From an uncultured Polaribacter sp. (GTDB lineage: Bacteria > Bacteroidota > Bacteroidia > Flavobacteriales > Flavobacteriaceae), in NCBI RefSeq assembly GCF_947497125.1, contig NZ_CANMFI010000006.1, positions 62,001 through 126,000 on the forward strand: DNA of 64,000 nucleotides. The letters are read 5' to 3'. The position numbers and the translations under genes are program-made. The notes under the pieces are model-generated. The model had not been told where the DNA came from. It did no database searches and worked only from the letters and a program-made list of their open reading frames with translations. The stretch's first letter is position 1, and each line of letters opens with the position of its first letter. This document shows, piece after piece, positions 959-57,682 of this stretch.

Positions 959-1281
959 AATTTTTATCTTGTTAAAATAAATTTGCATTACCTACTTTAG
1001 TTTGTATTTAATACTAGGAAATTGGAATTGTATGGTTTTGAGATAGATTTAAATTAGAATGAAACAAGAACTTAACCGTCTTAGAAATGTTTTTACAGAC
1101 AATACATTTTAATTTTATTAGTCACTATTATAATATTTTTCAGTAATTCCTTTTACATACAATCAGTAAAAGTTTTCAGGACAGGACAGGATACAATAGC
1201 TTACCTTTATTTTTACATTTATCGGTATCAATAATTTTGTAAAAAACAAAGTCAGTTTATTAATATTTAAGAGAATATTCT
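959..1281. other. Intergenic region with the PUL-type promoter
   Basis: About 320 bases without a gene. Bases 960-1170 are AT-rich and I see no ORF or hairpin of note. Bases 1177-1221 hold a copy of the shared promoter. The remaining 60 bases are the presumed 5' leader of the sulfatase-GH78 gene. Confidence 0.6.
1177..1221 (+). promoter_or_regulatory. PUL promoter copy 1 (CAGGA repeat plus -7 box)
   Basis: Three head-to-tail CAGGA units (CAGGACAGGACAGGATAC, 1177-1194), then 19 bases, then TACATTTA at 1214-1221, which fits TAnnTTTR. The start codon is 60 bases further on. This is the most perfect copy of the repeat in the window. Confidence 0.8.
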
Positions 1282-4200
1282 ATGTTTAAAAATAGTTTTT
1301 TATTAGTTCTAATTTGTTCATTATACAGTTTTAATACTGTAACTGCACAAAAAAACACAAATTCAGAAAAACCGAACATCATTTTTATTTTAACAGATGA
1401 TCAACGTTTTGATGCCATTGGTTATGCAGGAAATAAATTTGTGCAAACTCCAGAAATGGACAATTTAGCAAAGGCAGGAACCTACTTTAATTCAGCCATT
1501 GTAACAACACCAATTTGTGCAGCAAGTAGAACTAGTATTTTAACAGGTTTACATGAAAGAACTCATAACTTTAATTTTCAAACAGGAAATGTTAGAGATG
1601 AATACATGGATGCTTCTTATCCAAGATTGTTAAAAGACAATGGATATTATACAGGTTTTTATGGTAAATATGGTACTAGATATAATGATTTAGACAAGCA
1701 GTTTAATGAATATGAGTCTTATGATAGAAACAACAGATTTAAAGATAGAAGAGGCTATTATTACAAAACCATAGGAAAAGATACGGTACACTTAACTAGA
1801 TATACAGGGCAACAAGCCATTGATTTTATTGATAAAAATGCCGATAATAACCAACCTTTCTGTTTATCGTTAAGTTTTAGTGCACCTCATGCACATGATC
1901 CTGCAGAAAAACAATATTTCTGGCAAAGTACTATGGATGCAATGTTAGAAAACACAACCATGCCAAAGCCTGCATTAGCAGACGATAAGTACTTTAATGC
2001 ACAACCAGAAATTGTTAAAAAAGGATTTAACAGATTGCGTTGGACTTGGAGATACGACAATCCAGAAAAGTACCAACATAGTTTAAAAGGGTATTATAGA
2101 ATGATTTCTGGAATAGATGCAGAAATCACTAAAATACGTGCGAAGTTAAAAGAAAAAGGGCAAGACAAAAATACCGTTATCATTGTAATGGGAGACAATG
2201 GTTACTTTTTAGGTGAAAGACAAATGGCCGGAAAATGGTTGATGTATGACAATTCAATTAGAGTACCTTTAATTGTTTTTGATCCTAGAGAAAACAGTCA
2301 TCAAGATATAGATGATATGGTCTTAAATATCGATGTTACACAAACTATTGCAGATTTAGCAGGTGTAAAAGCGCCTAAATCTTGGCAAGGAAAAAGTTTA
2401 ATGCCAATTGTAAAACAACAAAAGAAATCTATAGAAAGAGATACTATTTTAATAGAACATATTTGGGACTTTAGCGAAATTCCACCAAGTGAGGGAGTGC
2501 GTACTAAAAAGTGGAAGTATTTTAGATATGTAAATGATAAGACTATAGAAGAGTTCTATGATTTAGAAAAAGATCCTCAAGAAATTAAAAACCTTGTTGG
2601 TAAAAGAAAATACAAAGAGGTTTTAGCAAACTTAAGAGCAAAGACAGAAGAATTAATTCAAAAAAACAGTGATCACTTTAGAGCTGCTCCGTCAGATTTA
2701 ACAGTAGAATTAATTAGAGAGCCAACTACAGAGGTAAAAATTTTCGATTTAAAACCAGAATTTGGATGGACTGTTCCTTTAGGAGCAAAATACCAAGGTG
2801 CATATCAAATTTTAGTAGCATCAAACAAAGCAAGTATAGATGCAAATAATGGCGATATTTGGGATAGTGGTAGAGTAGCATCATCAAAATCTACAGATGT
2901 AGAGTTTACAGGAAATGAGTTAGAAGTAGATAAAACATATTTCTGGAAAGTTAGAATTTGGGACGAAGCAAATCGTTTAGTTGATTATTCTGAGGCGCAA
3001 CAATTTACAACAGGTAAAAGTGATGACTACATTATTTCTACAGAAAATAAATATTTAGTAGATAAGGTAAAACCTATTGCTTTTGAAAATAGAGGAGATT
3101 TTTATTTCATGGATTTTGGTAAAGCTGCTTTTGCAACTATCGACTTTAATTATATAGCTAAAGAACCTCATACATTAACCGTTAGAATTGGTGAAATGCT
3201 AGATGTTAATGGGAATGTAAATAGAACACCACCAGCAAAAAGTAACATTCGTTACCAAGAAATTAAGGTGAATGTAACTCCTGAAAAGACAACTTACCAA
3301 ATAGAAATTAATCCGGTTCCAGACAAGCGTATGAAAGGGCCAAGTAAGGCAATTCCTTTACCAGAAGGCTTCCCTGTACTACAACCTTTTAGATATGCTG
3401 AAGTAGAGGGCGCAAAAACTTCATTAAAAGCTGCAGATTTCGAACAATTAAGACACACAGGTTATTGGGAAGATGATGCAAGTAACTTTAGCAGTAACAA
3501 TAATATTTTAAATCAAGTTTGGGATTTTTCTAAATATTCTATCAAAGCAACCACTTTTAACGGATTGTATGTAGACGGAGATAGAGAACGTATACCTTAT
3601 GAGGCAGATGCATATTTAAATCAATTAAGCCATTACACAACAGATAGAGAGTTTGCCATTGCTAGAAGAACCATAGAGTATTTTATGGAGAACCCAACAT
3701 GGCCTACAGAATGGCAACAACATGTAGCGTTGTTAATTTATGCAGATTACATGTATACAGGCAACACAGAATTGATAGAACGTTATTATGAGCCGTTAAA
3801 GCACAAAACACTTTTTGAGCTATCAAATGAAGACGGTTTAATTACATCTACAAAAGTAACAGAAGAGTTTATGTATAAGTTAGGTTTTAAATCTGGTTAT
3901 AAAAAACCATTAACAGATATTGTAGATTGGCCTTCTAAGAATTTTGCGGGTAGTAAAACAAAAGGAGAAAGAGATGGGTTTGTATTTAAACCTTACAGTA
4001 CTGTAATTAATGCTTTCTTTTATGAAAACATGAAAATTATGTCTGAGTTTGCTAAATTATTAGGAAAAACACAAGAAGCCTTAGATTTTGAATATAGGGC
4101 TGCAAAAGCTAAAAAAGCAGTAAACGAACAAATGTTTAATAAAGAAAAAGGAATCTATGTAGATGGTATTGGTACAGACCATTCTTCTTTACACGCAAAT

Positions 4201-4815
4201 ATGATGCCTTTAGCATTTGGTTTGGTTCCAGAAGAGCACTATCAATCTGTAGTAGATTTTGTAAAATCTAGAGGAATGGCTTGTAGTGTTTATGGAGCCC
4301 AATTTTTAATGGATGGTTTATACAATGCAGGTGAAGAAGATTATGCACTTGAATTATTGGCAAGTAAAGCTAAGAGAAGTTGGTATAATATGATTCGTAT
4401 AGGATCTACAATTTCTTTAGAAGCTTGGGATTATGAGTATAAAGTAAATTTAGATTGGAACCACGCTTGGGGTGCAGCACCAGCAAATGTAATTCCTAGA
4501 GGATTATGGGGTATTAAACCTAAAACACCAGGTTTTGGTATTGCTACGATTAAGCCTCAAATGAGTAAATTAAAGTCTAGTGCTATAGAAGTACCAACTG
4601 TAAGAGGAACAATAAAGGCAAGTTACAAGCACAATGGGCCGAGATTACAAACGTATGAAATTGAAATACCAGGTAATATGGTTGCAGAATTTTCTTTGAA
4701 CGGTTCTGAAGGAAAAGAATTTATACACAATGGAAAAAGCGTTCCATCTGCATTTAAAATTGTACGATTAACGCCAGGTAAACATACCATTCAGTTAAAA
4801 ATTAATTCTTTTTAA
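1282..4815 (+). CDS. Bimodular S1 sulfatase - GH78 alpha-L-rhamnosidase fusion
   Basis: A 1177-residue secreted protein with an N-terminal signal peptide ending near 'VTAQ'. Residues ~30-460 form an S1 sulfatase: 'FILTDDQR' carries metal ligands, and C79 in 'CAASR' is the site converted to formylglycine. Residues ~490-1170 form a GH78 alpha-L-rhamnosidase. A fibronectin-like N-terminal sandwich comes first, then the (alpha/alpha)6 barrel with '[12 protein letters not shown]' (likely acid E769) and 'SLEAWD' (likely base E1047). One chain could thus remove sulfate from a rhamnose and then cleave the rhamnose. I recall a similar sulfatase/GH78 fusion in the Formosa agariphila ulvan PUL. It is a single-gene unit with its own PUL promoter and a hairpin behind it. 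Domain calls are firm; substrate is inferred. Confidence 0.9.
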
Positions 4816-4857
4816 AGGGTGATGAATACTACAATCGAGTACATATATAAATTTAAT

Positions 4858-4882
4858 AAAAGGTAGCTTTTAACTACCTTTT
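4858..4882 (+). terminator. Hairpin terminator after the sulfatase-GH78 gene
   Basis: Nine-base-pair perfect stem AAAAGGTAG / CTACCTTTT with a seven-base loop, ending in four T. The T-run is short, so some read-through into the lyase gene 58 bases later is possible; that gene has no copy of the shared promoter of its own. Confidence 0.6.
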
Positions 4883-4940
4883 ATTGTTTAATAAGTTTGG
4901 CAAAAAATATATATCTAATTTTAAAAACAACTTTGTAAAT

Positions 4941-7186: not shown

Positions 7187-7231
7187 CAGTACAGTGCAGG
7201 ATACTTGAGTATGGTTTCGGTTTTATATTGC
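7187..7231 (+). promoter_or_regulatory. PUL promoter copy 2
   Basis: CAGTACAGTGCAGGATAC (7187-7204), 19 bases, then TATATTGC (7224-7231), whose TA is exactly in register although the TTTR part is imperfect. The start codon of the T9SS protein follows 32 bases later. Confidence 0.75.
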
Positions 7232-7263
7232 AAAAAATCTCTCATTAAATAAATTTAAAAATT

Positions 7264-9673: not shown

Positions 9674-9718
9674 CCATATAGTACAGGACACAAATTTAAG
9701 TTGTTAATTATAATTTGC
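9674..9718 (+). promoter_or_regulatory. PUL promoter copy 3
   Basis: Upstream half-site degenerate (CCATA), core CAGGACAC at 9684-9691, 19 bases, then TAATTTGC at 9711-9718 with the TA in exact register. It drives the GH2 to GH105 operon; the leader to the GH2 start is about 75 bases. Confidence 0.7.
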
Positions 9719-12771: not shown

Positions 12772-12774
12772 AAA

Positions 12775-13746
12775 ATGAGTACAAAAAATATTAATTGGGG
12801 TATTATTGGTTGCGGAGATGTCGCAGAAATAAAAAGTGGTCCTGCTTTTCAGAAAGTAGAAAATTCCGCCCTAATTAGTGTAATGAGAAGAAACAAAGAA
12901 AAAGCAAAAGATTTTGCAAAAAGACATAACGTTGCTCATTGGACTTCAAACGCCATAGACATTATTAATCATAAAGATATTAATGCTGTTTATATTGCAA
13001 CACCACCCTCTTCTCATTTAGAATATGCATTAAAAGCAATAGAAGCTAATAAACATGTCTATCTAGAAAAACCAATGGTGTTAAACAGTAAAGAAGCAAG
13101 CATACTGTCTAAAGCTGTTAAAAAAGGAAATTCAAAAGTAACTGTTGCGCATTATAGAAGAAAATTGCCAAATTTTATTGCAGTAAAAGAAATGTTAGAG
13201 GCAGAACTAATAGGAGATGTTACCCATGCAATGCTTACTATTTCTCAATCAAAAAAAGCAAATTTAATTGCCAAAACAGCTGTAAATTGGAGGGTAAACC
13301 CAGAAATATCAGGAGGTGGTTATTTTCATGACATTGCTCCACATCAAATAGATTTAATGTACTATTATTTTGGTGATATAGATACTATGAAAGGAATTGA
13401 TATAGAAAACTATAAACGTTCTAAAGATGTTGTGAAAGGAGAAATACAATTTAAAAACGGAGTTCAGTTTAAAGGAAGTTGGAATTTTAACGCTTCTACA
13501 GATGTAGACAATTGTACAATTTATGGAGAGAACGGTACCATCTCTTTTTCTTTTTACGGCAATGAGATTAAGGTTATTTTAGAAGAACACACTCAAACAT
13601 ATACTTTTAACAACCCAAAACACGTGCAACAACCATTGATAGAAAAAACAGTTGCTTATTTTCTAGGCAATACTTCAAACCCTTGTTCTATTGAAGAAGG
13701 AGTAGTTGTAACACAAGTTATGGATACTTTTTGTGGAATTAAATAG
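12775..13746 (+). CDS. Gfo/Idh/MocA-family NAD(P)-dependent oxidoreductase, cytoplasmic
   Basis: 323 residues with no signal peptide, so cytoplasmic, unlike the two Tat-exported relatives further right. The N-terminal Rossmann fold shows 'GIIGCGDVAE'. 'VYLEKPM' carries the lysine typical of the family near the sugar and cofactor, and 'HDIAPHQIDLMYYYFG' is the usual C-terminal alpha/beta-domain motif. Family members oxidise or reduce sugars and inositols, or run redox-assisted isomerisation. It starts 3 bases after the GH2 stop and its own stop (TAG) abuts the next ATG, so it is translated in an operon with periplasmic glycosidases. It may process a monosaccharide freed by them; the substrate is unknown. 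Confidence 0.85.
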   Translation: MSTKNINWGIIGCGDVAEIKSGPAFQKVENSALISVMRRNKEKAKDFAKRHNVAHWTSNAIDIINHKDINAVYIATPPSSHLEYALKAIEANKHVYLEKPMVLNSKEASILSKAVKKGNSKVTVAHYRRKLPNFIAVKEMLEAELIGDVTHAMLTISQSKKANLIAKTAVNWRVNPEISGGGYFHDIAPHQIDLMYYYFGDIDTMKGIDIENYKRSKDVVKGEIQFKNGVQFKGSWNFNASTDVDNCTIYGENGTISFSFYGNEIKVILEEHTQTYTFNNPKHVQQPLIEKTVAYFLGNTSNPCSIEEGVVVTQVMDTFCGIK

Positions 13747-18599: not shown

Positions 18600-18644
18600 C
18601 AGGATAAGACAGGATGGAGCTTTTTCTATATAAAAGTACTTTTA
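18600..18644 (+). promoter_or_regulatory. PUL promoter copy 4
   Basis: CAGGA at 18600 and CAGGATGG at 18610-18617 (10-bp period), 19 bases, then TACTTTTA at 18637-18644. The GH3 start codon is 23 bases further on. Confidence 0.8.
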
Positions 18645-20992: not shown

Positions 20993-21037
20993 CAGTACAG
21001 TACAGGATAAATTACTTTTTAAAATAGATTAATATTA
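20993..21037 (+). promoter_or_regulatory. PUL promoter copy 5
   Basis: CAGTACAGTACAGGATAA at 20993-21010, 19 bases, then TAATATTA at 21030-21037 (TA in register, TTTR imperfect). It precedes the toroid/heparinase-fold lyase by 30 bases. Confidence 0.78.
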
Positions 21038-28021: not shown

Positions 28022-28066
28022 CAGGATAGTTCAGGATACTTTCGCTAAAGACATAACATAGATTTA
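28022..28066 (+). promoter_or_regulatory. PUL promoter copy 6
   Basis: CAGGA at 28022 and CAGGATAC at 28032-28039, 19 bases, then TAGATTTA at 28059-28066. It lies in the 94-base gap between GH106 and the first PL28-like gene, 29 bases before the ATG. Confidence 0.82.
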
Positions 28067-31331: not shown

Positions 31332-31376
31332 CAGGATAAAACAGGATGCGTTTTAAATAGTATCTTCATAATTTAC
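31332..31376 (+). promoter_or_regulatory. PUL promoter copy 7
   Basis: CAGGA at 31332 and CAGGATGC at 31342-31349, 19 bases, then TAATTTAC at 31369-31376 (TA in register). The start of the toroid protein is 19 bases later. Confidence 0.75.
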
Positions 31377-34511: not shown

Positions 34512-34514
34512 GTT

Positions 34515-35858
34515 TTATATTTTAGGTTCCCAACCAGGTTCATAAGTTCTAGACCAAAGCTTCATAGCATCTCTGTCATAAATTTTCCCAGAATTTTCAT
34601 CAACATTAAAACCCTTGTTAATTCTATAAGAAATGTTTGCATAATGAGTTAACATTTGAGATACTGCACCTACTTCTATAGAAGATGTTAATTTTTGTTT
34701 CCCTCTAATTGCGTCGAAAAAATTAGTTACGTGTCTTGTGGTTAAATTGCCACCACCACCTAGGGTAAGTCCACCTTCTTTTCCTCCAGATTTTTTTTCT
34801 TTAATTAATTTTCCTTTTAGATCATACAATTCATAACCACCTCTATCTACAAATACCAAGCCTTTAGATCCATAAATAATAGTTCCTCTTCCTCTACCAT
34901 ATTTTTGAAACGCATTTCTGCTATCTCCATCCCATTGAATGACTCTGTTATTTGCAAATTTAAAAGTGGCTTCCATTTGATCGTACATTTCCCAACCATC
35001 GCTTTTAAACTGTCTTTTTCCGGCAATTACATCAACATATTCTGGATATTTTACATCTAAAGCCCAACGTGCAATATCTAATTCATGCGTTGCATTGTTT
35101 CCCATTTCTGCAGTTCCAAAATCCCAACCATACCAATGCCAGTTGTAATTCCAAGTATCATGAGTATATTCTTTTCTTGGAGATGGACCTTGAAACAATT
35201 CCCAATTTAATCCTTTAGGTGGTGCAGCTTTTACAGGAACAGGAACTTCGCCTCTTCGATTTGTATAAAATGCTACAGCTTTGTACACATCGCCTATAAC
35301 GCCATTATGTATTTCTGTAATAATTTCTTGACTTTCTAAAGATGATCTTTGCTGATTGCCCATTTGTACAATTTTATTGTATTTTTTTTGAGCAGCAACT
35401 ACCAATTCATTTTCATGCGGATTGTGGCTACAAGGTTTTTCTAAATACACATGCTTGCCTGCTTGCATTGCCATAATTGCCCCAGGGGTGTGCCAATGAT
35501 CTGGTGTTGCCATAAAAATGGCATCTATATCTTTATCATTAATAATTTTTCTGATGTCTTCTTCAGATTTAATTTTATAATCAATTTTTTTGCTAACTTT
35601 TTCTTGCGCTTTTTCTAATTGACTAGGCATTACATCGCACAAATATTTTAAGCGAACATTATTTTCTTTGGCAGCAATACCATCTATAAACCCAAAATAT
35701 CTTCTTCCTAATCCTTGAATAGCTAAGTTTATTCTGTCATTTGAGCCAATAATATTATTATAACTTTTTGCAGACATCGCGTTAGCAGAACCTACCAAGC
35801 CAATTCCTGCAGCAGCAGTAGCTGTTTTTTTTATAAAATTTCTTCTAGAAGTGTTCAT
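34515..35858 (-). CDS. Tat-exported Gfo/Idh/MocA oxidoreductase B
   Basis: 447 residues with Tat leader 'SRRNFIKKTATAAAG' and a cleavage-like 'ANA'. Rossmann region 'LAIQGLGRRYFG', then 'HVYLEKPCSHN' (EKP lysine) and 'NATHELDIARWALDV' (histidine motif). Longer than the cytoplasmic relative at 12775 and close in layout to the Tat-exported group often listed with GH109. Its ATG shares one base with the stop of the upstream DUF1080 gene (TAATG), so the two are translationally coupled. An exported pair A/B next to DUF1080 suggests sequential oxidation and reduction of a sugar. Which of the two does which is not visible. Confidence 0.85.
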   Translation of the reverse strand: MNTSRRNFIKKTATAAAGIGLVGSANAMSAKSYNNIIGSNDRINLAIQGLGRRYFGFIDGIAAKENNVRLKYLCDVMPSQLEKAQEKVSKKIDYKIKSEEDIRKIINDKDIDAIFMATPDHWHTPGAIMAMQAGKHVYLEKPCSHNPHENELVVAAQKKYNKIVQMGNQQRSSLESQEIITEIHNGVIGDVYKAVAFYTNRRGEVPVPVKAAPPKGLNWELFQGPSPRKEYTHDTWNYNWHWYGWDFGTAEMGNNATHELDIARWALDVKYPEYVDVIAGKRQFKSDGWEMYDQMEATFKFANNRVIQWDGDSRNAFQKYGRGRGTIIYGSKGLVFVDRGGYELYDLKGKLIKEKKSGGKEGGLTLGGGGNLTTRHVTNFFDAIRGKQKLTSSIEVGAVSQMLTHYANISYRINKGFNVDENSGKIYDRDAMKLWSRTYEPGWEPKI

Positions 35859-37231
35859 TATTTTTTCTTTTTAGTATTAGGAACTTTAATTTTAATATTT
35901 CTAAATGATACTTTATCTCCATGATCTTGTAATAAAATCTGACCTTTTTCTAACATTCCAAAATTTGGCCATTTTTCATATTTACTTCCAGCAACAAGTT
36001 TTAAAAATTCTTCACTTCCACGTTCATATTCTAAAACTTTAACATCGTTAACCCAATGCTCTACATGATTGTTTATCGATTTAATGTAAGCATTATTCCA
36101 TTCTCCAATTGGTTTTAAAGGTTTTATTGGGTCAGCTTTTATTAAATCGTACAAAGAGCAAACGGTTCTACTTCCTTCATAAGAACCTCTTTTAGCATCT
36201 TCATGTAAGGCATCATCTAAAATCTGATATTCTAGACCAATAGAAGAACCTGGACCTTTATTAATTTCTGTATCTACATAATATTTAATACCACTATTTG
36301 CACCAGCAGTTAATTTAAAATCTACTTTTAATTCAAAATCACTGTACTCTTTTGTGGTTACAATATCTCCACCTGCAGTAGATTCTGCACCACCAGTATC
36401 GGCAACGGTTAATTCTCCATTTTCTATAGACCACCCTTTTTTAGGAAATTCATTTAATTTAGCTCCTCTCCAACCATTAGTTGTTTTTCCGTCCCAAAGC
36501 ATTTTCCATCCAGTTCTCTTTTCTTGATATGTTAGATTATTTTTGGTGATAATTGGTTTTAGTGGAGATTTTCTGGCATATGTATCTAAATCTGTGGTTA
36601 AAATTCTAATATTTTTCCAAAGGGTTTGTTTGCCTAAATTCTTTTTATTTTTTCCAATAGAGTGCACTTGTAGGCCAATAAATCCGGCAGCATTTTTATC
36701 ATCAATTAAATGAGATGCAGCCACTCCGTTAACCCAAGTTTTAATAGTGTCTGCAATTGCTTCAATTCGATAGTGGTTCCATTCATTTTGTTTAAAAGCC
36801 TTTTGAGCAGCAACATTATCTTTCAAAGGATTTAACCACAATCTTCTTTTTTCGTCATAAATTCCTCCACTCCAAGCACGTTTTGATGGATCGATCTCTA
36901 CTTGATATCCATGTACCATTCCGTCTCTATAATATGGGATTGAATTACTGCGTATTTGAATGCCAGAATTCATAGTTGAATCTACTTTAAAATCAATTTC
37001 TAAAATAAAATTAGAATACATTTCATTGGTGCATAAAAAAGTGTTTGGAGTATCGGCTACGGTAGTCCCAATGATTACTCCGTTTTCATTTTTATAAGTT
37101 GCATTACCTCCTTTAATATTCCAATCTTTTAAAGAATCTTGTAGAATTAGGTTTTTCCAGGGTGTTTGATCTTTATTGCACGAAAAAAAAGTGAATGCAA
37201 TTAAAATGAGATATAAATTATAATATTTCAT
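35858..37231 (-). CDS. Lipoprotein with two DUF1080 (3-keto-disaccharide hydrolase) domains
   Basis: 457 residues; lipoprotein signal with Cys in 'TFFSCNK'. Two copies of the DUF1080 jelly roll are visible: ~25-210 ('DSTMNSGIQIRS', 'NEWNHYRIEAIADTIKTWVNG') and ~235-450 ('GANSGIKYYVD', 'GEWNNAYIKSINNHVEHWVND'). Both end with the usual 'N(I)' strand. Some DUF1080 proteins are known to hydrolyse or eliminate 3-keto-glycosides. It is first gene of the minus-strand operon under a PUL promoter and is coupled to two exported oxidoreductases. The likely role is cleavage of an oxidised ulvan fragment in the periplasm, which is inference. Confidence 0.85.
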   Translation of the reverse strand: MKYYNLYLILIAFTFFSCNKDQTPWKNLILQDSLKDWNIKGGNATYKNENGVIIGTTVADTPNTFLCTNEMYSNFILEIDFKVDSTMNSGIQIRSNSIPYYRDGMVHGYQVEIDPSKRAWSGGIYDEKRRLWLNPLKDNVAAQKAFKQNEWNHYRIEAIADTIKTWVNGVAASHLIDDKNAAGFIGLQVHSIGKNKKNLGKQTLWKNIRILTTDLDTYARKSPLKPIITKNNLTYQEKRTGWKMLWDGKTTNGWRGAKLNEFPKKGWSIENGELTVADTGGAESTAGGDIVTTKEYSDFELKVDFKLTAGANSGIKYYVDTEINKGPGSSIGLEYQILDDALHEDAKRGSYEGSRTVCSLYDLIKADPIKPLKPIGEWNNAYIKSINNHVEHWVNDVKVLEYERGSEEFLKLVAGSKYEKWPNFGMLEKGQILLQDHGDKVSFRNIKIKVPNTKKKK

Positions 37232-37273: not shown

Positions 37274-37318
37274 GTAATTTATCAAATGTATTTCAATCAA
37301 ATATCCTGTTGTGTCCTG
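37274..37318 (-). promoter_or_regulatory. PUL promoter copy 8 (minus strand)
   Basis: Read on the minus strand: CAGGA (37318-37314), CAGGATAT (37308-37301), 19 bases, then TAAATTAC (37281-37274), TA in register. It drives the DUF1080/oxidoreductase operon. It is back-to-back with copy 9 on the other strand. Confidence 0.75.
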
Positions 37319-37380: not shown

Positions 37381-37425
37381 CTTACTAGTGCAGGACAGTT
37401 ATTTATTTCTTTTGAAATATATTTA
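37381..37425 (+). promoter_or_regulatory. PUL promoter copy 9
   Basis: Upstream half degenerate (CTTAC), core CAGGACAG at 37391-37398, 19 bases, then TATATTTA at 37418-37425. The leader to the enolase-superfamily start is ~93 bases, the longest of the set. Confidence 0.72.
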
Positions 37426-38816: not shown

Positions 38817-38861
38817 CAAGATACTACAGGATAATTTTATCGAAAACAAAAAATAACTTTA
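38817..38861 (+). promoter_or_regulatory. PUL promoter copy 10
   Basis: CAAGA at 38817, core CAGGATAA at 38827-38834, 19 bases, TAACTTTA at 38854-38861. It sits 24 bases before the first gene of the Planctomycetes-like module. Confidence 0.8.
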
Positions 38862-38885: not shown

Positions 38886-41723
38886 ATGGATAACACAAAC
38901 TGGGTATTACAATTATTAGGGCGTTTACATCCTTTATTGGTGCATTTTCCCATAGGGCTATTGGTGGTTGCTTTCGTGTTAGAGATTTTCACAATAACAG
39001 GAAAACATAAAGAGCTTAGAAAAGGTGTAAATTTGATGGTATACATTGGTGCGAGTTTTGCTGTTTTTTCTGCATTATTTGGTTGGTTTTTAAAAACCCA
39101 AGAAGAATATTCAGGAGATTTAGTAGATAACCATCAATATACAGGAATTGCAACAGCAGTTTTATCTTTGCTTACCGCGTTATTTTTAAAATCGGGTTTA
39201 AAAAAGTTACCTGTAAAGTTAAAGGCATATCGAATTTTATTCTTTGCAACTATAATTTTATTAACAATAGCAGGGCACTTAGGAGCAAATTTAACACATG
39301 GAGAAGATTATCTTTTAAGTGTTTTACCAGGAAATAAAGAGGTATATACTAAAAAAGAATCTGGTAATTTACTTACAGAATTAAAAGGAAAGTCGGAATT
39401 ATCAGTTTTACAAAAAGATAAATTAAGCTTAGAAGTAAGAGGTCTTTTTGCGCACAAATGTTATCAATGTCACAGTGAAAATAAACAAAAAGGGCAGTTA
39501 GTTTTAGAGCATAAAGAAGGTGTTTTTAAAGGTGGTAAATCTGGTTTAGCAGTTGTGCCGGGTAAACCAGAAGAAAGTGAAATTTATAAAAGAATTATAC
39601 TACCAGAAGGTGATAAAAAAGTAATGCCAACCAAAGGTAAATTACTAACTAAGGATGAAATAGCCCTCGTAAAACTTTGGATTAAAGATGGTGCTCATTG
39701 GTCTGATGATGAAGTAAAGGTGTTTCCAGAAGCAGCATTGGTATTGGTAAAACCAGAACTACCAACGGTAACTAACGAAAATCATCCTCTAGATAAAATA
39801 ATAAGTTCTTATTTTGATAAAAATGATATTTCTTGGAAATCTTTAATTTCTGATAGAAAATTTATAAAAAGGGCATATTTAGATGTTGTAGGCTTATTGC
39901 CAGAACCTTCAGTTATAGATGCTTTTGTAAATGATGTCAATCCTCAAAAAAGAGAATTATTAATAGATGAGTTGTTAAATGATTCAGAAAATTACACACA
40001 GCATTGGTTAAGTTTTTGGAACGATTTATTAAGAAATGATTATAGTGGAACAGGTTTTATAACAAAAGGAAGGTTCCAAATTACAGGATGGTTGTACAAT
40101 TCCTTAAAAAAGAATACTTCTTATGATCAGATGATTAGTCAGCTTATAAATCCAGACAAAAAATCGGAAGGGTTTATAAAAGGAATTCAATGGCGAGGAG
40201 TTGTAAATTCTAGCCAAAGTACAGAAATGCAAGCAGCTCAAAATATTGGACAATCTTTAATGGGGGTTAATGTAAAATGTGCTTCTTGCCATAATAGTTT
40301 TGTTAGTAATTTAACCTTAGATCAGGCATACAGTTTTGCTTCTATTTTTGCAGAAGAGCCTTTAGAATTAAATAGATGTGATAAACCCATAGGTAAGTTT
40401 GCAAAAGTAAATTTTTTATATCCAGAATTAGGGAGTGTAGAGGCAGAAACTCTTGAAGAACGTTTGCTAAAATTATCTGAAGTAATGATTAGTAAACAAA
40501 ATGGACGTTTGTATAGAACTATTACAAATCGTTTTTGGGAGCGTTTAATTGGTAGAGGTATTGTAGAGCCTTTAGATGAAATGGACAATACACCTTGGAA
40601 TGCAGAATTATTAGATTGGTTGGCAGCAGATTTTATAGATGCAGAGACCGATTTAAAGCATTTGATAAAGCGTATTATGACCTCTAAAGCCTATCAATTA
40701 CCAATAGTAAACTACAAAACACAAGAAGATTTAAAGAAAAATTATGTTTTTAAAGGCCCCGTTTTAAGAAGGCTAAGTGCAGAGCAATTTTCGGATGCTA
40801 TTAGTCAGGTTGTAGCACCAGTTTATGAGGCAGTTGCGTACAATCCTAACGAAGAAAAAATGCCTGCAAAAAGGATTTGGCATCATCAGAAAGACTTAAC
40901 AAATACAGTATTGCCATTGCCTGGGAAGCGCTATTTTAGAAAGCAATTTAAATTGTCAAAAAAACAAATAAAGCAAGCTTCAGTTTTAATTTCTGTTGAT
41001 GATTCTTACAAACTTTTTATAAATGGTAATAAAGTAGGAGAGGGAAATAATTGGACAGAAGTTGGTAATTTTGATGTAACAAGTCTACTGGTTAAGGGCG
41101 ATAATATTATTGCTATAGAAGGTAATAATGAAGGTAAAATAGGAAATCCAGCAAGCATTTTATTTGCACTTAAAGTTACATTTAATGATAAAAAAGTGTT
41201 CAAATTATTTTCAGATACATCTTGGGTAAGTAATGATAAAACATCCAATTCTAATTGGGTTTCATTAGATTATGATGCTAGTAACTGGGAAAAAGTTCGC
41301 AATTATGGAGATCATAATTGGGGTAAATTATTAGATTTTACTTTCAGAAATCATAAAAAAACATTTGCAAGAGCTAGTTTGGTAAAACAGCATTCTTTTT
41401 TAAAATCTTTAGGAAGGCCAAATAGAGAAATTGTAGTTTCTAAAAGAGAAGAGCAAGCTTCATTATTGCAAGCTTTAGAGCTTACAAATGGTGTTTTTTT
41501 TAATGGTATTTTAGAAAAAGGAGCAGAAAAATGGCTAGATACATATGAGTACAATAGCGCTAAAATAGTAGATGCTTTGTATCAGAAATTATTAGGAAGA
41601 CAACCTTCTTCTGATGAAAAAAAGATTGTAATAGCTTCCTTAGGAGAGCAACCAAGCATAGAACAAGTTCAAGATGTTTTTTGGTCGGTTTTAATATCTC
41701 CTGAATTTCAATTTATAAACTAA
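38886..41723 (+). CDS. Membrane-anchored cytochrome/DUF1549/DUF1553 protein (Planctomycetes type)
   Basis: 945 residues. Residues ~1-150 hold about four hydrophobic segments of a DUF2231-like membrane domain ('LGRLHPLLVHFPIGLLVV'). Next is a c-type cytochrome region with CxxCH at C192-H196 ('CYQCH') and 'VVPGKPEESEIYKRI', as in PSCyt1. A DUF1549-like region follows, with a second CxxCH at C465-H469 ('CASCH'), then 'NRFWERLIGRGIVEPLDEMD'. A jelly roll ('VLISVDDSYKLFINGNKVGEG', split over ~695-820) is inserted before the C-terminal DUF1553 part ('YQKLLGRQPSSDEKK'). Such proteins are abundant in Planctomycetes, paired with DUF1501 as here, and no reaction is established for them. The haem motifs imply electron transfer at the membrane or periplasm. 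Confidence 0.8.
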   Translation: MDNTNWVLQLLGRLHPLLVHFPIGLLVVAFVLEIFTITGKHKELRKGVNLMVYIGASFAVFSALFGWFLKTQEEYSGDLVDNHQYTGIATAVLSLLTALFLKSGLKKLPVKLKAYRILFFATIILLTIAGHLGANLTHGEDYLLSVLPGNKEVYTKKESGNLLTELKGKSELSVLQKDKLSLEVRGLFAHKCYQCHSENKQKGQLVLEHKEGVFKGGKSGLAVVPGKPEESEIYKRIILPEGDKKVMPTKGKLLTKDEIALVKLWIKDGAHWSDDEVKVFPEAALVLVKPELPTVTNENHPLDKIISSYFDKNDISWKSLISDRKFIKRAYLDVVGLLPEPSVIDAFVNDVNPQKRELLIDELLNDSENYTQHWLSFWNDLLRNDYSGTGFITKGRFQITGWLYNSLKKNTSYDQMISQLINPDKKSEGFIKGIQWRGVVNSSQSTEMQAAQNIGQSLMGVNVKCASCHNSFVSNLTLDQAYSFASIFAEEPLELNRCDKPIGKFAKVNFLYPELGSVEAETLEERLLKLSEVMISKQNGRLYRTITNRFWERLIGRGIVEPLDEMDNTPWNAELLDWLAADFIDAETDLKHLIKRIMTSKAYQLPIVNYKTQEDLKKNYVFKGPVLRRLSAEQFSDAISQVVAPVYEAVAYNPNEEKMPAKRIWHHQKDLTNTVLPLPGKRYFRKQFKLSKKQIKQASVLISVDDSYKLFINGNKVGEGNNWTEVGNFDVTSLLVKGDNIIAIEGNNEGKIGNPASILFALKVTFNDKKVFKLFSDTSWVSNDKTSNSNWVSLDYDASNWEKVRNYGDHNWGKLLDFTFRNHKKTFARASLVKQHSFLKSLGRPNREIVVSKREEQASLLQALELTNGVFFNGILEKGAEKWLDTYEYNSAKIVDALYQKLLGRQPSSDEKKIVIASLGEQPSIEQVQDVFWSVLISPEFQFIN

Positions 41724-41739
41724 TACGAACTCTAGGGGT

Positions 41740-43200
41740 ATGAAGTATAAAAATAATAAAATAAGTTCGCGAAGAGAATTTATAAAAAAAATGACTGCAG
41801 CAAGTATTGCTGCTTCTGCAACAACAATTCCTATTGCAAGTCTTTTAAGTTCTTGCTCATCAGAAGTACAAAAAAAAGCAGCATCTGCAGATACTGTTAT
41901 TTTACTTTGGATGGCAGGAGGAATGGCACACACAGAAACATTTGATCCTAAAAAATATGCTCCTTTCGAAAAAGGATTGGATACAAAAAAAGTATTAAGT
42001 ACGTTTCCAAAGCATCCAACAGCTGTAGATGGGTTAGAGTTTTCAGAAGGGTTGCAGTCTATTGGTGATGTTATGGATAAAGGTGCGATTATAAGATCTT
42101 ATAAAGCTGCAGATTTAGGGCATATTTTACACACAAGGCATCAATACCATTGGCACACTTGTTACGAGCCACCTCAATCTGTTCAGGCGCCACACATTGG
42201 TGCTTGGATTGCTAAAGAGTTAGGGCCAGCAAACCCAGTAATTCCTCCTTTCATTTCTATTGGGCAACGTTTTACAATGGGAGAGGCAGAAGAGTTAAAA
42301 GCATTTCATTCTGCAGGGTTTTTAGGAAATGAATATGGTCCATTTTTAATACCAGATCCTTCAGAAGGATTAGACAGTGTTCGTCCTCCAGAAGGAATGT
42401 CTTTAAAACGTTTTGAAGCCCGTTATAAATTATACAAAGAATTGTCTAATAAAAGCGAGGTTATGGAGCAGGCAAGCGATTATCAAAGAGAATCGTTAAT
42501 GCGTTCTATGGAGCAGTCTTACAGACTTTTAAATTCTCCAGAAGCCAAAGTTTTTGATTTGTCACAAGAATCGAAAGAGGTTTATGATACTTATAACACT
42601 GGTCGTTTTGGATTGGGTTGTTTATTAGCCAAACGATTGGCGCAAGGTGGAGGAAGGTTTATAAGTGTTTCTACAGAATATGAACCCTTTTTAGGTTGGG
42701 ATACACACGCAAATGGGCATACAAGAGCAAAACAAATGAAAGCTTTAATTGATAGGCCTGTAGCACAGTTGATTAAAGATTTAGACGAATCGGGTCATTT
42801 AGACAGAACTTTGGTTATTCTAGCTAGCGAATTTAGTAGAGATGCTATTATGGAAGGCAGACCAGGAGAAGAAGTTAAAGATCAAGCAAAAAATCAGCCA
42901 GATAAAATAAACAATATAAAGCATTATGGTATGCATCGTCATTTTACAGACGGAGGCTCTATTTTAATGTGGGGTGGAGGTATTAAAAAAGGATTGGTAT
43001 ACGGGAAAACTGCAGATGAAAGACCATGTGTTTCTATAGAAAAACCAGTAGTTATAGATCAAGTACATCAATCTGTTTACCATGCTTTAGGCATTGATTC
43101 TCAAACACATTATGAAGTAGAAAGTAGGCCTTTTTACACGACTCCAGATGGAAAAGGAAAACCTATTTTAGACCTTTTTGGTAGAGAAATGAAAGCATAA
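41740..43200 (+). CDS. Tat-exported DUF1501 protein
   Basis: 486 residues with Tat leader 'SSRREFIKKMTAASIAAS' and Cys in 'LLSSCSS'. The body is a DUF1501 domain, distantly related to the alkaline phosphatase/sulfatase superfamily: 'ILLWMAGGMAHTETFDPK', 'GHILHTRHQYHW', 'GGGRFISVSTEYEPFLGWDTHANGH', 'VILASEFSR'. The His and Asp clusters could bind metal, but there is no formylglycine motif, so it is not a classical S1 sulfatase. It begins 16 bases after the cytochrome/DUF1549 gene. That pairing is the standard Planctomycetes arrangement. Function unknown. Confidence 0.85.
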   Translation: MKYKNNKISSRREFIKKMTAASIAASATTIPIASLLSSCSSEVQKKAASADTVILLWMAGGMAHTETFDPKKYAPFEKGLDTKKVLSTFPKHPTAVDGLEFSEGLQSIGDVMDKGAIIRSYKAADLGHILHTRHQYHWHTCYEPPQSVQAPHIGAWIAKELGPANPVIPPFISIGQRFTMGEAEELKAFHSAGFLGNEYGPFLIPDPSEGLDSVRPPEGMSLKRFEARYKLYKELSNKSEVMEQASDYQRESLMRSMEQSYRLLNSPEAKVFDLSQESKEVYDTYNTGRFGLGCLLAKRLAQGGGRFISVSTEYEPFLGWDTHANGHTRAKQMKALIDRPVAQLIKDLDESGHLDRTLVILASEFSRDAIMEGRPGEEVKDQAKNQPDKINNIKHYGMHRHFTDGGSILMWGGGIKKGLVYGKTADERPCVSIEKPVVIDQVHQSVYHALGIDSQTHYEVESRPFYTTPDGKGKPILDLFGREMKA

Positions 43201-43213
43201 AAATTATCAGAAA

Positions 43214-44299
43214 ATGAATCGCAAGCAATTTTTAGGAACTACAGTTAAAGCAGCAGCGGGTATACTAGCTGTACCTCACTTTCATATTTTAAAATCAAAA
43301 CCAAAAATGTACGATACTATTATTGGTCATGGAGATTTTAAGTATAAAGTTCATAAATCTTGGGGAGATTTAGATCGTAAAATAACGCCTGTAAAAAACT
43401 GCCATGAAATGGTAATGGACTCTAAAGGGCGTCTAATAATGGTAGGAGATAATACCAGAAATAATATCTTAATTTACGATAAATCTGGTAAGCTTTTAGA
43501 TTCTTGGGGTGTTCGGTACAAAGGTGGTCATGGGCTGTCTTTATGGAACGATGGTTCTGAAGATTTTATATTTATATGTGATTCTAAAGGGCAAAGTGTT
43601 ATAAAAACAACAACCGATGGACGTGAGTTAATGATTCTAGAGCATCCATCAAAGTATGGGGCTTATGATAAAAAAGATGCCTATAAACCAACAGAAAGTG
43701 CTATTGCACCTAATGGAGATATTTATATTGCAGATGGCTATGGTTCTAATTATGTACTTCAATTTACGAAAGATGGCGACTTTATTAGAAAAATAGGAAG
43801 TGGAAGAGGGATTGGTCAAGATCAATTTCAAACAGCACATGGCGTTTGTATTGACTATAGAGGTAAAGGCAATCCAACGTTATTAATAACCTCTAGAGCT
43901 GCAAATTGTTTTAAACGTTTTACTTTAGATGGAAAATATATAGAGCAAATAGATTTGCCAGGTGCGTTTGTGTGTCGCCCAGTAATTCACAATGATAATT
44001 TATATTCAGGAGTCTGTTGGTCTTCAGAACACGATTATATGGAAGGTAATCAGAACACGCATCCAATACGTACAAATCCAAAATCTGGTTTTGTAACTAT
44101 TTTAGATGAAAATGGTAAAGTAGTTTCTAATCCCGGAGGGACAAAACCAAAGTATAAAAAAGGAAAGTTGCAAAGAATGGTTCAAGAAGAACCAATTTTT
44201 AATCATTGCCATGATGTTTGTATAGATGCTGATGAAAATTTGTATGTATGCCAATGGAATGCTAATAAAACATACCCAATAAAATTAGAAAGAGTTTAA
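43214..44299 (+). CDS. Exported NHL-repeat beta-propeller protein
   Basis: 361 residues with a Tat-like leader ('MNRKQFLGTTVKAAAGILAV'). The rest is a run of NHL/SMP-30-like propeller blades: 'CHEMVMDSKGRLIMVGD', 'IAPNGDIYIADGYGSNYVLQFTKDGDF', 'AHGVCIDYRGKG', 'HCHDVCIDADENLYVCQWNAN'. Acidic and His residues at blade starts could hold a metal, as in lactonases or peptidyl-glycine lyase-like propellers. It begins 13 bases after DUF1501 and 12 bases before GH78, so it is in the same operon. It may be a lactonase for oxidised sugars or a binding subunit; not decided by the sequence. Confidence 0.75.
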   Translation: MNRKQFLGTTVKAAAGILAVPHFHILKSKPKMYDTIIGHGDFKYKVHKSWGDLDRKITPVKNCHEMVMDSKGRLIMVGDNTRNNILIYDKSGKLLDSWGVRYKGGHGLSLWNDGSEDFIFICDSKGQSVIKTTTDGRELMILEHPSKYGAYDKKDAYKPTESAIAPNGDIYIADGYGSNYVLQFTKDGDFIRKIGSGRGIGQDQFQTAHGVCIDYRGKGNPTLLITSRAANCFKRFTLDGKYIEQIDLPGAFVCRPVIHNDNLYSGVCWSSEHDYMEGNQNTHPIRTNPKSGFVTILDENGKVVSNPGGTKPKYKKGKLQRMVQEEPIFNHCHDVCIDADENLYVCQWNANKTYPIKLERV

Positions 44300-47178: not shown

Positions 47179-47223
47179 CATTACAGCACAGGATACTTTA
47201 CGATTATAGTTCGTGTATTTTTG
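47179..47223 (+). promoter_or_regulatory. PUL promoter copy 11
   Basis: CATTA at 47179, core CAGGATAC at 47189-47196, 19 bases, then a perfect TATTTTTG at 47216-47223. Its position rules out a coding start at 47151 and supports the ATG at 47247. Confidence 0.82.
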
Positions 47224-48245: not shown

Positions 48246-49832
48246 TTGATTAAAGTCTATAAAAAGTTTCTATTACTGTCTTTAATTTTGCTTTTTAATT
48301 GTAACAAAGAAGAGGTTGTAAAACATAAAAAACCAAACATCTTATTTATTCTTGTTGATGATTTAGGCTATCATGATTTAGGTGTAACAGGCAGTACATT
48401 TTACGAAACACCAAATATAGATCAGCTAGCAAATCAAAGTGCAAAATTTACACAAGGGTACGCTGCAAGTAGAGTTTGTAGCCCTTCTAGAGCCAGTATT
48501 ATGACTGGTAAATTTACAGCAAGACATGGAATAACAGATTGGATTGGTGCAAAAGCAGGAGAAGATTGGAGAGCAAGAAACAGACATGATAAATTATTGC
48601 CAGCAAACTACATTCAAGCTTTATCAAAACAAGATGTAACTATTGCAGAAGCTTTTAAAAAAGCAGATTATAAAACTTTTTTTGCAGGTAAATGGCATCT
48701 TGGAGGCCAAGGTTCTTACCCAGAAAACCACGGCTTTGATATTAATAAAGGTGGTTTTCATAGAGGAGGTCCTGTAGGTGGTTTTTTTGCACCATTTAAT
48801 AATCCTAAATTAAAAGATAACCAAAAAGGAGAAAATTTAACCATTCGTTTGGCGGAAGAAACTGCTAAATTTATCAAGCAAAATAAAGACACTACTTTTT
48901 TTGCTTTTTTATCTTTTTATGCAGTGCATGCGCCCATACAAACCACAGAAAGCAAATGGAATAAATACAGGGATAAAGCAGATAGTTTAGGAATTGCAAA
49001 GTCTGGCTATAAATTGGAACGTGTTTTACCTGTAAGGCAAGTGCAAGACAACCCTATTTATGGCGGATTAGTAACAACTATGGACGATGCTGTGGGTATT
49101 GTTTTAAAAGCTTTAAAAGAAAATAACTTAGATAAAAACACCATAGTAATTTTTACTTCTGATAATGGAGGTGTTGCCTCTGGAGATAATTATGCAACAA
49201 GTAATTTACCGTTAAGAGGTGGTAAAGGATACCAGTGGGAAGGAGGAATAAGAGTCCCTTTTTTTATAAAAGTACCTTGGTTAGAAAATATACGTGCAGA
49301 AAGAAATTTCCCTGTAATTCATAGTGATTTTTATCCAACGCTTTTAGATTTAGCAAATATTCCTTTACAACCAGAACAACATAAAGATGGTATTAGTTTA
49401 AAACCAATTTTAGAAGGAAGTAATTTAGATGTAGACAGACCATTGTATTGGCATTATCCTCATTATGGAAATCAAGGTGGAGAACCTTCGTCAATAATTC
49501 AGTTTGAAGGTTGGAAATTAATTCATTATTGGGAAGATAATAGAGAAGAACTTTTTAAACTTCCATCTACTGAAAAAGATGAATTGAATGTAATACACAA
49601 ATACCCAATAATAGCTACTAAATTAAGTAGTCAATTGCTAAGTTGGTTAGCAGAAGTAAATGCAAAGTATCCAGAAAAAGATAAAGAATATGATAGTATT
49701 AAACAGCAAAAAGTTCTTTATATAAACAAAAATAATAAGTTAGAATCTTTAGAAAATAATAGGCTAAAAGTACTTTCAAAAGATTTTAAACCAAATGCAA
49801 ATTGGTGGAAAAGCAAAGTAATTATTGATTAA
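48246..49832 (+). CDS. S1-family sulfatase lipoprotein, TTG start
   Basis: 528 residues. No ATG exists near the N-terminus; the frame opens just after the upstream stop (TAA then TTG) and the TTG gives a coherent lipoprotein signal ('LLLSLILLFNCNK'), so translation is probably coupled. Sulfatase motifs: 'ILVDDLGYHD' (metal Asp pair), C78 in 'CSPSRASIMTG' (formylglycine site), 'FAGKWHLGG', 'IFTSDNGG' (metal Asp/Asn). Length is typical. It removes sulfate from ulvan fragments in the periplasm or at the surface; rhamnose 3-sulfate is the obvious target but not proven. It requires maturation by an enzyme not present in this window. Confidence 0.9.
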   Translation: MIKVYKKFLLLSLILLFNCNKEEVVKHKKPNILFILVDDLGYHDLGVTGSTFYETPNIDQLANQSAKFTQGYAASRVCSPSRASIMTGKFTARHGITDWIGAKAGEDWRARNRHDKLLPANYIQALSKQDVTIAEAFKKADYKTFFAGKWHLGGQGSYPENHGFDINKGGFHRGGPVGGFFAPFNNPKLKDNQKGENLTIRLAEETAKFIKQNKDTTFFAFLSFYAVHAPIQTTESKWNKYRDKADSLGIAKSGYKLERVLPVRQVQDNPIYGGLVTTMDDAVGIVLKALKENNLDKNTIVIFTSDNGGVASGDNYATSNLPLRGGKGYQWEGGIRVPFFIKVPWLENIRAERNFPVIHSDFYPTLLDLANIPLQPEQHKDGISLKPILEGSNLDVDRPLYWHYPHYGNQGGEPSSIIQFEGWKLIHYWEDNREELFKLPSTEKDELNVIHKYPIIATKLSSQLLSWLAEVNAKYPEKDKEYDSIKQQKVLYINKNNKLESLENNRLKVLSKDFKPNANWWKSKVIID

Positions 49833-49839
49833 AAAAACC

Positions 49840-50586
49840 ATGAAAAAAATTATCTATTTAGCATTGTTTAGTTTCAGTATTTTTCAATGTCAAGACTCAA
49901 AAAAAGAAGATTTTAAATCTATTTTTAATGGTAAAAATTTAGAGGGTTGGAGTGGAGATGCAACTTATTGGTCTGTTGAAAATGGCGTTTTAGTGGGTGT
50001 TGTTACACCAGAAACTATTTTAAAGAAAAATACATTTGTTATTTATGAAAAAGAACAACCAAAAAATTTTGAGTTAAAACTTGAATATAAAATTTCTGAC
50101 TCAGGTAATAGTGGTATAAACTATAGAAGTCAGGTTATAGAAAACAACCCATTTGCTTTAAGAGGTTATCAATGTGATATAGATGGTAAAAATAAATATA
50201 CGGGTCAAAACTACGAAGAGAAAAAGCGAACCACACTTGCTTATATTGGAGAAAAAGTTGTGATTAATAATATGCCAGACACAATACCTAACAATAACAT
50301 CAGAAAAAATGTAAAAAAGAATTGTTGGCAAACAAGAGAAGTTGTTGCTTCTTTAGGTGATAAAAAAGAACTTACTACTCACATTAAAGGAAATGATTGG
50401 AATAAAGTTCATTTAATCATCAAAGACAATCACTTGCAGCATTATATAAATGGTGTTTTATTGAGTGAAGTGATAGATTTAGATACTATAAATAGCACTA
50501 AAAAAGGTTTTATAGGAGTACAAGTACATGTTGGACCACCTATGAAAGTTGAGTATAAAAATATACGATTAAAGGTCTTAGAATAA
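49840..50586 (+). CDS. Single-domain DUF1080 lipoprotein (3-keto-glycoside hydrolase-like)
   Basis: 248 residues from the ATG at 49840, seven bases after the sulfatase stop; an in-frame TTG at 49825 overlaps that stop and is less likely. Lipoprotein Cys lies in 'SIFQCQD'. The DUF1080 domain is complete: 'FNGKNLEGWSGDATYWSVENG', 'KISDSGNSGINYRSQ', 'RGYQCDIDG', 'GNDWNKVHLIIKDNHLQHYINGV' (given in parts), 'GFIGVQVHVGPPMKVEYKNI'. The insertion with 'TREVVASLGDKKEL' is also common. Third gene in its operon. It is the second of three DUF1080 proteins in the window. Confidence 0.88.
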   Translation: MKKIIYLALFSFSIFQCQDSKKEDFKSIFNGKNLEGWSGDATYWSVENGVLVGVVTPETILKKNTFVIYEKEQPKNFELKLEYKISDSGNSGINYRSQVIENNPFALRGYQCDIDGKNKYTGQNYEEKKRTTLAYIGEKVVINNMPDTIPNNNIRKNVKKNCWQTREVVASLGDKKELTTHIKGNDWNKVHLIIKDNHLQHYINGVLLSEVIDLDTINSTKKGFIGVQVHVGPPMKVEYKNIRLKVLE

Positions 50587-50734: not shown

Positions 50735-50779
50735 CATAACAGTACAGGACTCCACTTCAATAAAATTCATTTATTTTTG
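50735..50779 (+). promoter_or_regulatory. PUL promoter copy 12
   Basis: CATAA at 50735, core CAGGACTC at 50745-50752, 19 bases, then a perfect TATTTTTG at 50772-50779. The sulfatase ATG is 26 bases later. Confidence 0.8.
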
Positions 50780-52664: not shown

Positions 52665-52700
52665 AAAATAGATATTATTTTTTAATATCTATTTTTTTTT
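52665..52700 (+). terminator. Rho-independent terminator after the sulfatase
   Basis: Thirteen-base-pair stem AAAATAGATATTA / TAATATCTATTTT with a five-T loop and a long T-run, ~115 bases after the stop codon. Confidence 0.75.
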
Positions 52701-52821
52701 GTGTAAAATGTATTTTTATGTTCTTTTTATTAACGTATTAATATTTTGTCTCAGATGCTTTCCTATCAGTAAATTATCGGTCTTTGTGAGCTTGTGTTGA
52801 TTGGGGATTTCGTTTTTAAAA

Positions 52822-52866
52822 AAGGATAGAACAGGATAGTCAATATTATTTTAATAAATAAATTGT
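52822..52866 (+). promoter_or_regulatory. PUL promoter copy 13 (susCD)
   Basis: AAGGA at 52822, core CAGGATAG at 52832-52839, 19 bases, TAAATTGT at 52859-52866 (TA in register, remainder imperfect). It precedes the susC start by 29 bases. Confidence 0.74.
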
Positions 52867-52895
52867 GAATATATTAATCAAATCAAACTAAATTT

Positions 52896-55946: not shown

Positions 55947-55956
55947 AAAAAAAGAT

Positions 55957-57537: not shown

Positions 57538-57570
57538 ATCTTTGTTTTGAATTGATTTATTTGAATTTGA

Positions 57571-57604
57571 AAGCCGAAAGAAATTATTTTCTTTCGGCTT
57601 TTTT
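57571..57604 (+). terminator. Rho-independent terminator after susD
   Basis: Ten-base-pair stem AAGCCGAAAG / CTTTCGGCTT, extendable inward by A:T pairs, followed by T-run. 33 bases after the susD stop. Confidence 0.9.
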
Positions 57605-57637
57605 AGTATAGAATAATTTTTAATAAGATTATATAAT

Positions 57638-57682
57638 CAGTATTGCACAGGACACATAATTAAAAATTTACAAGTAATTTTA
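57638..57682 (+). promoter_or_regulatory. PUL promoter copy 14
   Basis: CAGTA at 57638, core CAGGACAC at 57648-57655, 19 bases, then TAATTTTA at 57675-57682. The GH5 start codon is only 15 bases further. Confidence 0.8.

Follow-up and report, generated by a model that had tools for sequence, protein, structure and literature searches.

What ties fourteen promoters of one ulvan locus together, and which protein reads them? The window considered here is a 64,000-nucleotide stretch of contig C6 (G000:C6:62001-126000) in the genome of an uncultured Polaribacter sp. (2.72 Mb, 17 contigs, 99.86% complete), for which a preliminary description had claimed fourteen CAGGA-type 8-mers, each with the TA of a −7-like box beginning exactly 19 bases further on. 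All fourteen 8-mers are present at the positions reported, and the 19-base rule holds in 14/14 (CAGGA-N22-TA, the TA lying 27 bases from the C of CAGGA), with TAnnTTT(A/G) in 8/14 boxes as originally counted. Sequence comparison suggests that this element is the operator and promoter of one regulon read by a single protein, for which we coin the name RhaR and which we propose to be a rhamnose-responsive activator; we put the probability of this reading at roughly three in four.

The spaced pattern is far commoner in the real window than in shuffled DNA, a comparison of the kind that the preliminary description had proposed. Measured against 60 dinucleotide shuffles, CAGGA-N22-TA occurs 30 times in the window (shuffle mean 7.4, maximum 15) and CAGGA-N22-TAnnTT 14 times (mean 0.87, maximum 3), the latter being 13 reported sites and one match within an open reading frame (ORF) at window 61316, while CAGGA with TAnnTTT(A/G) at the same spacing occurs 8 times vs 0.1 in shuffles. 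TAnnTT is present at 13/14 window sites, the exception being 21003, whose box reads TAATATTA. Thirteen of the 14 elements start in intergenic DNA, which totals only 3,699 bases of the window; the other, 47189, is scored as in-ORF solely through a TTG-opened ORF, the first ATG lying ~31 bases past the TA. The 14-site element is real, conserved and well beyond chance. In window coordinates, its copies are:

1177..1221, + strand: CAGGACAGGA-CAGGATAC-N19-TACATTTA, before a sulfatase/GH78 fusion gene and BNR_4 genes
7187..7231, + strand: CAGTACAGTG-CAGGATAC-N19-TATATTGC, before a protein with a type IX secretion system (T9SS) tail
9674..9718, + strand: CCATATAGTA-CAGGACAC-N19-TAATTTGC, before a GH2, Gfo/Idh, GH43, GH3, GH88 operon
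18600..18644, + strand: CAGGATAAGA-CAGGATGG-N19-TACTTTTA, before GH3
20993..21037, + strand: CAGTACAGTA-CAGGATAA-N19-TAATATTA, before heparinase II/III-like and GH106 genes
28022..28066, + strand: CAGGATAGTT-CAGGATAC-N19-TAGATTTA, before two PL28 ulvan lyase genes
31332..31376, + strand: CAGGATAAAA-CAGGATGC-N19-TAATTTAC, before a 638-aa protein without a Pfam match
37274..37318, − strand: CAGGACACAA-CAGGATAT-N19-TAAATTAC, before a 3-keto-disaccharide hydrolase gene and two Gfo/Idh genes
37381..37425, + strand: CTTACTAGTG-CAGGACAG-N19-TATATTTA, before an enolase-superfamily gene
38817..38861, + strand: CAAGATACTA-CAGGATAA-N19-TAACTTTA, before a PSCyt/DUF1501/GH78 operon
47179..47223, + strand: CATTACAGCA-CAGGATAC-N19-TATTTTTG, before T9SS-tail protein, sulfatase and 3-keto-disaccharide hydrolase genes
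50735..50779, + strand: CATAACAGTA-CAGGACTC-N19-TATTTTTG, before a sulfatase
52822..52866, + strand: AAGGATAGAA-CAGGATAG-N19-TAAATTGT, before a SusC/SusD pair
57638..57682, + strand: CAGTATTGCA-CAGGACAC-N19-TAATTTTA, before a GH5-like gene

A second CAGGA or CAGTA had been described 10 bases upstream in most copies, with CA usually kept in the rest. CAGGA or CAGTA stands there in 8/14; among the other six only half keep CA (38817, 47179 and 50735), and the rest read CCATA, CTTAC and AAGGA. Alignment of 20 sites on the contig gives CAGKA-YAGTA-CAGGA-YAS, a direct repeat of 10 bp within which a 5-bp sub-period is visible and in which CAGGA and the TA at +27 are invariant, the sites having been chosen by that spacing.

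The reading of these sites as one regulon is upheld, and the regulon reaches beyond the window, where the spacing rule offered for finding its remaining members has led to further sites. The strict pattern YANNRCAGGAY-N21-TANNTT has 21 matches in the 2.72-Mb genome and its reversed-pattern control 0; 18 of the matches lie on C6 at 42-176 kb (17 promoters and the in-ORF match at window 61316), one in a cluster on C1 and two elsewhere. A matrix was trained on 20 of the genome's own sites (14 in the window, 6 other) chosen by CAGGA-TA spacing, whose scores and register therefore hold by construction; the remaining own sites and all other genomes lie outside this training set. C6 has ten further sites beyond the window; eight combine CAGGA with TA at +27, the exceptions being 134453, which reads CAAGA, and 137502, which has CA at +27. 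Under a simple operon rule (gaps ≤200 bases, ORFs ≥100 aa), 24 matrix sites account for 70/77 genes of a 134-kb C6 locus at 42-177 kb, covering ulvan lyases, sulfatases, SusCD, and uronate and rhamnose catabolism. A weaker related site, 129696, precedes the xylose operon and would bring four more genes (74/77), leaving uncovered rhaR and two genes at window 59133-61787. Site 42327 is followed by uxuB-like, uxuA and kduI genes and a TRAP transporter, with a uxaC-like gene recognized by eye; site 51699 by TonB-receptor/SusD genes; site 169204 by a bifunctional rhaD (over its cut-off) and rhaI- and rhaK-like genes (best matches, below cut-offs); and site 175337 by a permease-like gene. Enrichment is confined to the C6 locus and one sister cluster on C1 (706-740 kb), which has 9 matches >8 bits, 8 of them >14, and whose scanned proteins include a sulfatase, a TonB receptor and a GH78 rhamnosidase. 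C6:194260 (17.6 bits, AAGGA, before a gene outside the locus) was left out of the counts. On another contig, two near-identical pairs of pattern matches 18 kb apart (G000:C5:229571-230048 and 247403-247880) point to a duplicated segment.

RhaR is encoded at C6:167943-169034 on the minus strand, 42-43 kb past the right end of the window and divergent from the rhamnose catabolic operon. Its N-terminus is a GntR winged helix-turn-helix (wHTH) (PF00392, 3.4e-11, 43.1 bits, cut-off 27) and its C-terminus a LacI/periplasmic-binding-type effector domain (PF13377, 4.6e-07, 30.5 bits, cut-off 26.5). A genome search with RhaR returned two full-length GntR-HTH/LacI-sensor proteins, 33% identical and both in the C6 locus, together with one short partial match elsewhere; the second of the pair, XylR-like, heads xylB-xylA. 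The AlphaFold model of an 82% identical ortholog has a LacI-type effector domain (mean predicted local distance difference test score 85.1, predicted template modelling score 0.67), and residues 98-358 of the model of ortholog L167 align to the AraR effector domain 3tb6 (Z 20.0, 3.7 A, 246 residues). The nearest solved wHTHs include Bacillus subtilis AraR (4egy/5d4r). RhaR is the best candidate reader of the element, and comparison with many relatives makes this protein, of a family not expected in the role, the likely master switch of the ulvan locus.

The preliminary description had instead favored an AraC-type domain of a hybrid two-component system (HTCS). Bacteroides HTCS motifs are direct repeats upstream of the promoters of polysaccharide utilization loci (PULs), and those published average 21 bp between repeats, not 10 (PMC3878776). 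Across the whole genome PF12833 matches just three frames, 345, 304 and 396 aa long and all off C6; with no AraC protein of HTCS size in a 99.86% complete genome, an HTCS reader was rejected and is very improbable. Two other candidate families were also set aside. PF07494, a proxy for SusR-like propeller sensors, gave two single-repeat matches barely over the cut-off, both off C6 (SusR proteins themselves were not searched), and the four LacI-HTH genes of the genome all lie off C6.

Across the family, motif and regulator occur together. In a sample of 397 genomes, with a strong ortholog defined by E<1e-100 and statistics computed from hand-entered counts, the 79 genomes with a strong RhaR ortholog carry a mean of 7.8 motif matches (reversed-pattern control 0.9), the 90 with a weaker homolog only carry 2.0 (1.1) and the 228 without a homolog 1.6 (0.65); strong-ortholog and no-homolog genomes differ with p=6e-33 (Mann-Whitney, uncorrected for kinship). 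The site also lies close to the regulator gene, at 24/29 ortholog loci with 1.5-kb flanks, 19/20 with 9-kb flanks and 72/80 named loci; 13 of these 80 duplicate loci of the unnamed sets. The named loci hold 113 sites vs 1 in one shuffle per locus, and in 62/80 a site falls between −700 and +50 relative to the regulator start, with a single one of these sites off the divergent strand; the loci range from Flavobacterium and Zobellia to Lewinella and Marivirga. The PL28 genes of other genomes give a similar picture. Other genomes supplied 39 PL28 matches, of which 36 were used: 28/36 upstream stretches hold a site >15 bits vs 0/108 shuffles, and 7/36 have one on the opposite strand, which may mark divergent targets. 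The eight misses comprise two outright failures, L150 and L153 (cut by a contig end), and six loci with scores of 9-15 (L128, L132, L142, L147, L155 and L156). A strong RhaR ortholog is present in 19/20 PL28 genomes. Five PL28-bearing genomes (G070, G132, G044, G153 and G163) have two adjoining RhaR-type genes, the second copy 61-71% identical to the Polaribacter RhaR.

The motif also changes with the regulator. Three classes of motif, I (CAGGA), II (CAGAAC-type) and III (ACTAGTAnnTACTAG-like, obtained by direct reading of upstream DNA), occupy three parts of the regulator tree; in related clades the geometry seems nearly the same, with different motif words. Class maps onto the tree with 2 changes, the minimum possible and a number reached in 0/200 shuffles, in a test where flank length varied by set (1.5, 9 and 5 kb), the class II/III words were composed with these very loci in view, label II was given to four loci that had a class-II word as well as a matrix score >15, and 11/71 rows (nine unlabelled loci and two own proteins) were ungrouped. 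On the tree itself, the long branches (own XylR-like, L119, L106 and L116) are unsure and class I has support of 81/64 only. At rhaD, the promoters beside class I regulators read CAGGA in 79/79 sites found among 102 examined (73/73 and 96 without repeats), while those of the 40-48% clade read CAGAA in 4, CAGGA in 1 and CATAA in 1 of the 6 sites found in 8 promoters (CAGGA vs not, Fisher p 2e-7, from counts with repeats and uncorrected for kinship). Misses are counted among the 102, and 10 of the 23 were inspected: in seven (L175, L176, L178, L184, L190, L199 and L228; rhaD 63-64% identical to the own one) the site lies ~1.2 kb further up, before another gene, and in three (L225, L226 and L240) a CAGGA repeat of low score is visible near rhaD.

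These patterns bear on the idea that the element's reader is a different DNA-binding protein, such as an OmpR/PhoB-type response regulator, and that RhaR is a mere neighbor. OmpR/PhoB-type regulators use one-turn direct repeats that replace the −35 box (pho boxes), a geometry like that of the element, and only part of the genome's regulators was surveyed. The motif word at rhaD follows the clade of the adjacent GntR/LacI protein, which argues against a bystander role for RhaR, as does motif abundance that tracks RhaR presence, and we regard this alternative as improbable.

How might the element work? Promoters of Flavobacterium and Bacteroides carry TTTG at −33 and TAnnTTTG at −7 (PMC2483708, PMC9723704). 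At class I sites, the ATAS of CAGGATAS stands where the TTTG box would be, which bears out the earlier view that a one-turn direct repeat stands in for the −33 element at a constant distance from the −7 box. TTG is absent 17-23 bases before the TA in 24/24 own sites; this is the usual range for the spacer, and the repeat fills that place by construction. When core matches were scored without the −7 box, 133 distinct matches in relatives had TA..T at +27 in 78 and at +28 in 22, no other offset between 15 and 45 having more than 17; in the own DNA, TA is at +27 in 10/16 core matches outside the training set (23/36 with the 20 training sites included). Two high-GC Lewinella-type loci, read by eye, keep the 27-28-base register. 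A search of the own genome for the canonical spacing from TTTG/TTG to intergenic TAnnTTTG had too few boxes for any peak. The fixed spacing could also suit an alternative sigma factor with CAGGA as its −33 element, which the preliminary description had thought less likely; this has very little probability, because the −7 box has the TAnnTTTG form that the housekeeping sigma factor uses in Flavobacterium (PMC9723704), and further repeats extend upstream.

The remaining choice concerns the sign of control. RhaR might read the element as a repressor that covers the −33 region and leaves with the sugar, as AraR does in Bacillus. Several of its closest solved relatives are named repressors, and in a sister clade TTTG is overlapped by a near-palindrome that precedes the regulator's own gene: class III loci (L111, L115, L117, L118 and L120-L125) carry, close to that gene, a ACTAGTAnnTACTAGT-type site that in some of them overlaps a TTTG box, which is readable at the −33 place as CTAGTTTG, separated from the −7 box by 19 bases in L118 and 20 in L125. 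The class I element is a direct, not an inverted, repeat, and CAGGAYAS fills the −33 place so that, by construction, no TTG stands there. Because the element occupies that place in a near-locked register, kept at 27-28 bases in relatives though a repressor site need not keep one, we infer activation and consider repression unlikely. As an activator, RhaR would read CAGTACAGTACAGGATAG-type DNA, its subunits lining up head-to-tail along one DNA face, on the 10-bp repeats at about −43 and −33; bound RhaR would do the work of the absent −33 TTTG box and bring housekeeping polymerase to TAnnTTT(G/A). Intracellular rhamnose or an early rhamnose catabolite would switch RhaR, and ulvan breakdown products would thereby jointly induce lyases, sulfatases, SusCD, and uronate and rhamnose catabolism.

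Several observations weigh against a rhamnose-responsive activator RhaR as the reader. GntR and LacI-type sugar regulators are mostly repressors, and the class III near-palindrome overlapping TTTG before its own gene looks like repression. Among strong-ortholog genomes, 12/79 have ≤3 motif matches, while ≥5 are found in 8/90 weaker-homolog and 11/228 no-homolog genomes, one of the latter with eight; the two same-genus genomes sampled, both without a homolog, have 1 and 6 matches (controls 2 and 2). Site 129696, beside the genome's own xylose-linked paralog, resembles the RhaR element, and the two paralogs may therefore overlap in specificity. The class-I matrix gives 18-22 bits to six of the eight loci L106-L113, so that a single base makes most of the difference between classes I and II. 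The regulator survey of the genome covered the AraC, LacI and propeller families only. As for the paralogs, no xylose genes lie within 5 kb of class III regulators (queries: own xylA/xylB), and de novo 5-mer counts before the −7 boxes of paralog loci gave AT-rich noise only.

Among known systems, AraR of B. subtilis likewise joins a GntR wHTH to a LacI-type sensor, and RhaR also has a sugar operon next door. The AraR operator is a palindrome. AraR differs in being a repressor (PDB molecule name), whereas here a direct repeat replaces −33, activation is the favored sign and 24 sites lie on one contig. MocR-type GntR activators (GabR, PdxR, TauR) share the GntR wHTH and direct repeats and are often divergent from a positively regulated target, but have an aminotransferase-like C-terminal domain where RhaR has a LacI-type sensor (PMC5320631). 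HTCS and SusR regulons of Bacteroides likewise control PULs through direct repeats; HTCS repeats are ~21 bp apart and SusR repeats 67 or 77 bp apart, in contrast to 10 bp here, and HTCS have periplasmic sensor domains (PMC3878776). Known rhamnose regulators of the AraC, DeoR and LacI types also control rhamnose catabolism and sometimes rhamnosides, and the survey describing them lists at least seven regulator types, its main text lacking the term GntR (PMC3870299). RhaR is built like AraR, its site is more like MocR activator sites and its PUL context is like HTCS/SusR regulons; we regard it as a rhamnose regulator of the GntR/LacI type whose operator resembles that of an activator and whose regulon is unusually large. 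In the literature covered, which includes few subscription journals, no paper was found describing this regulator or motif, nor any ulvan PUL regulator, and the passages covered held no rhamnose-induction experiment on Formosa agariphila.

The gene content of the locus has features of its own. The sulfatase fused to a GH78 rhamnosidase (window 1282-4815) resembles the P36_S1_25/GH78 protein of F. agariphila (PMC8511951). Planctomycete-type cytochrome/PSD1/PSCyt2 and DUF1501 proteins occur in this flavobacterial ulvan locus at window 38886-44299, adjoined by an NHL/beta-propeller protein. Three Gfo/Idh/MocA oxidoreductases and three 3-keto-disaccharide hydrolase-domain proteins (window 12775-13746, 33318-37231, 49825-50586 and 60207-61787) suggest that ulvan oligosaccharides are also processed by an oxidation-first (3-keto) pathway, in parallel with the lyases. 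A 5,707-aa ORF lies close to the left end of C6, at G000:C6:15698-32821.

Ulvan is a major polysaccharide of green-tide algae, and the enzymes of its PUL are well studied. For its control, one protein, one motif and one spacing rule predict a regulon in many genera. On balance we favor the view that a GntR/LacI-type one-component sensor acts as a class-II-like activator that replaces the −33 element, and that in ulvan degraders a rhamnose switch has captured the whole locus (>30 promoters in this genome), such that a cytoplasmic monosaccharide signal, not a periplasmic oligosaccharide sensor, runs the PUL. Free rhamnose alone should then induce ulvan lyases. If activation is true, RhaR would be a GntR/LacI-type activator substituting for the −33 box of Bacteroidota promoters, and its element would offer a simple design for inducible promoters in this phylum.

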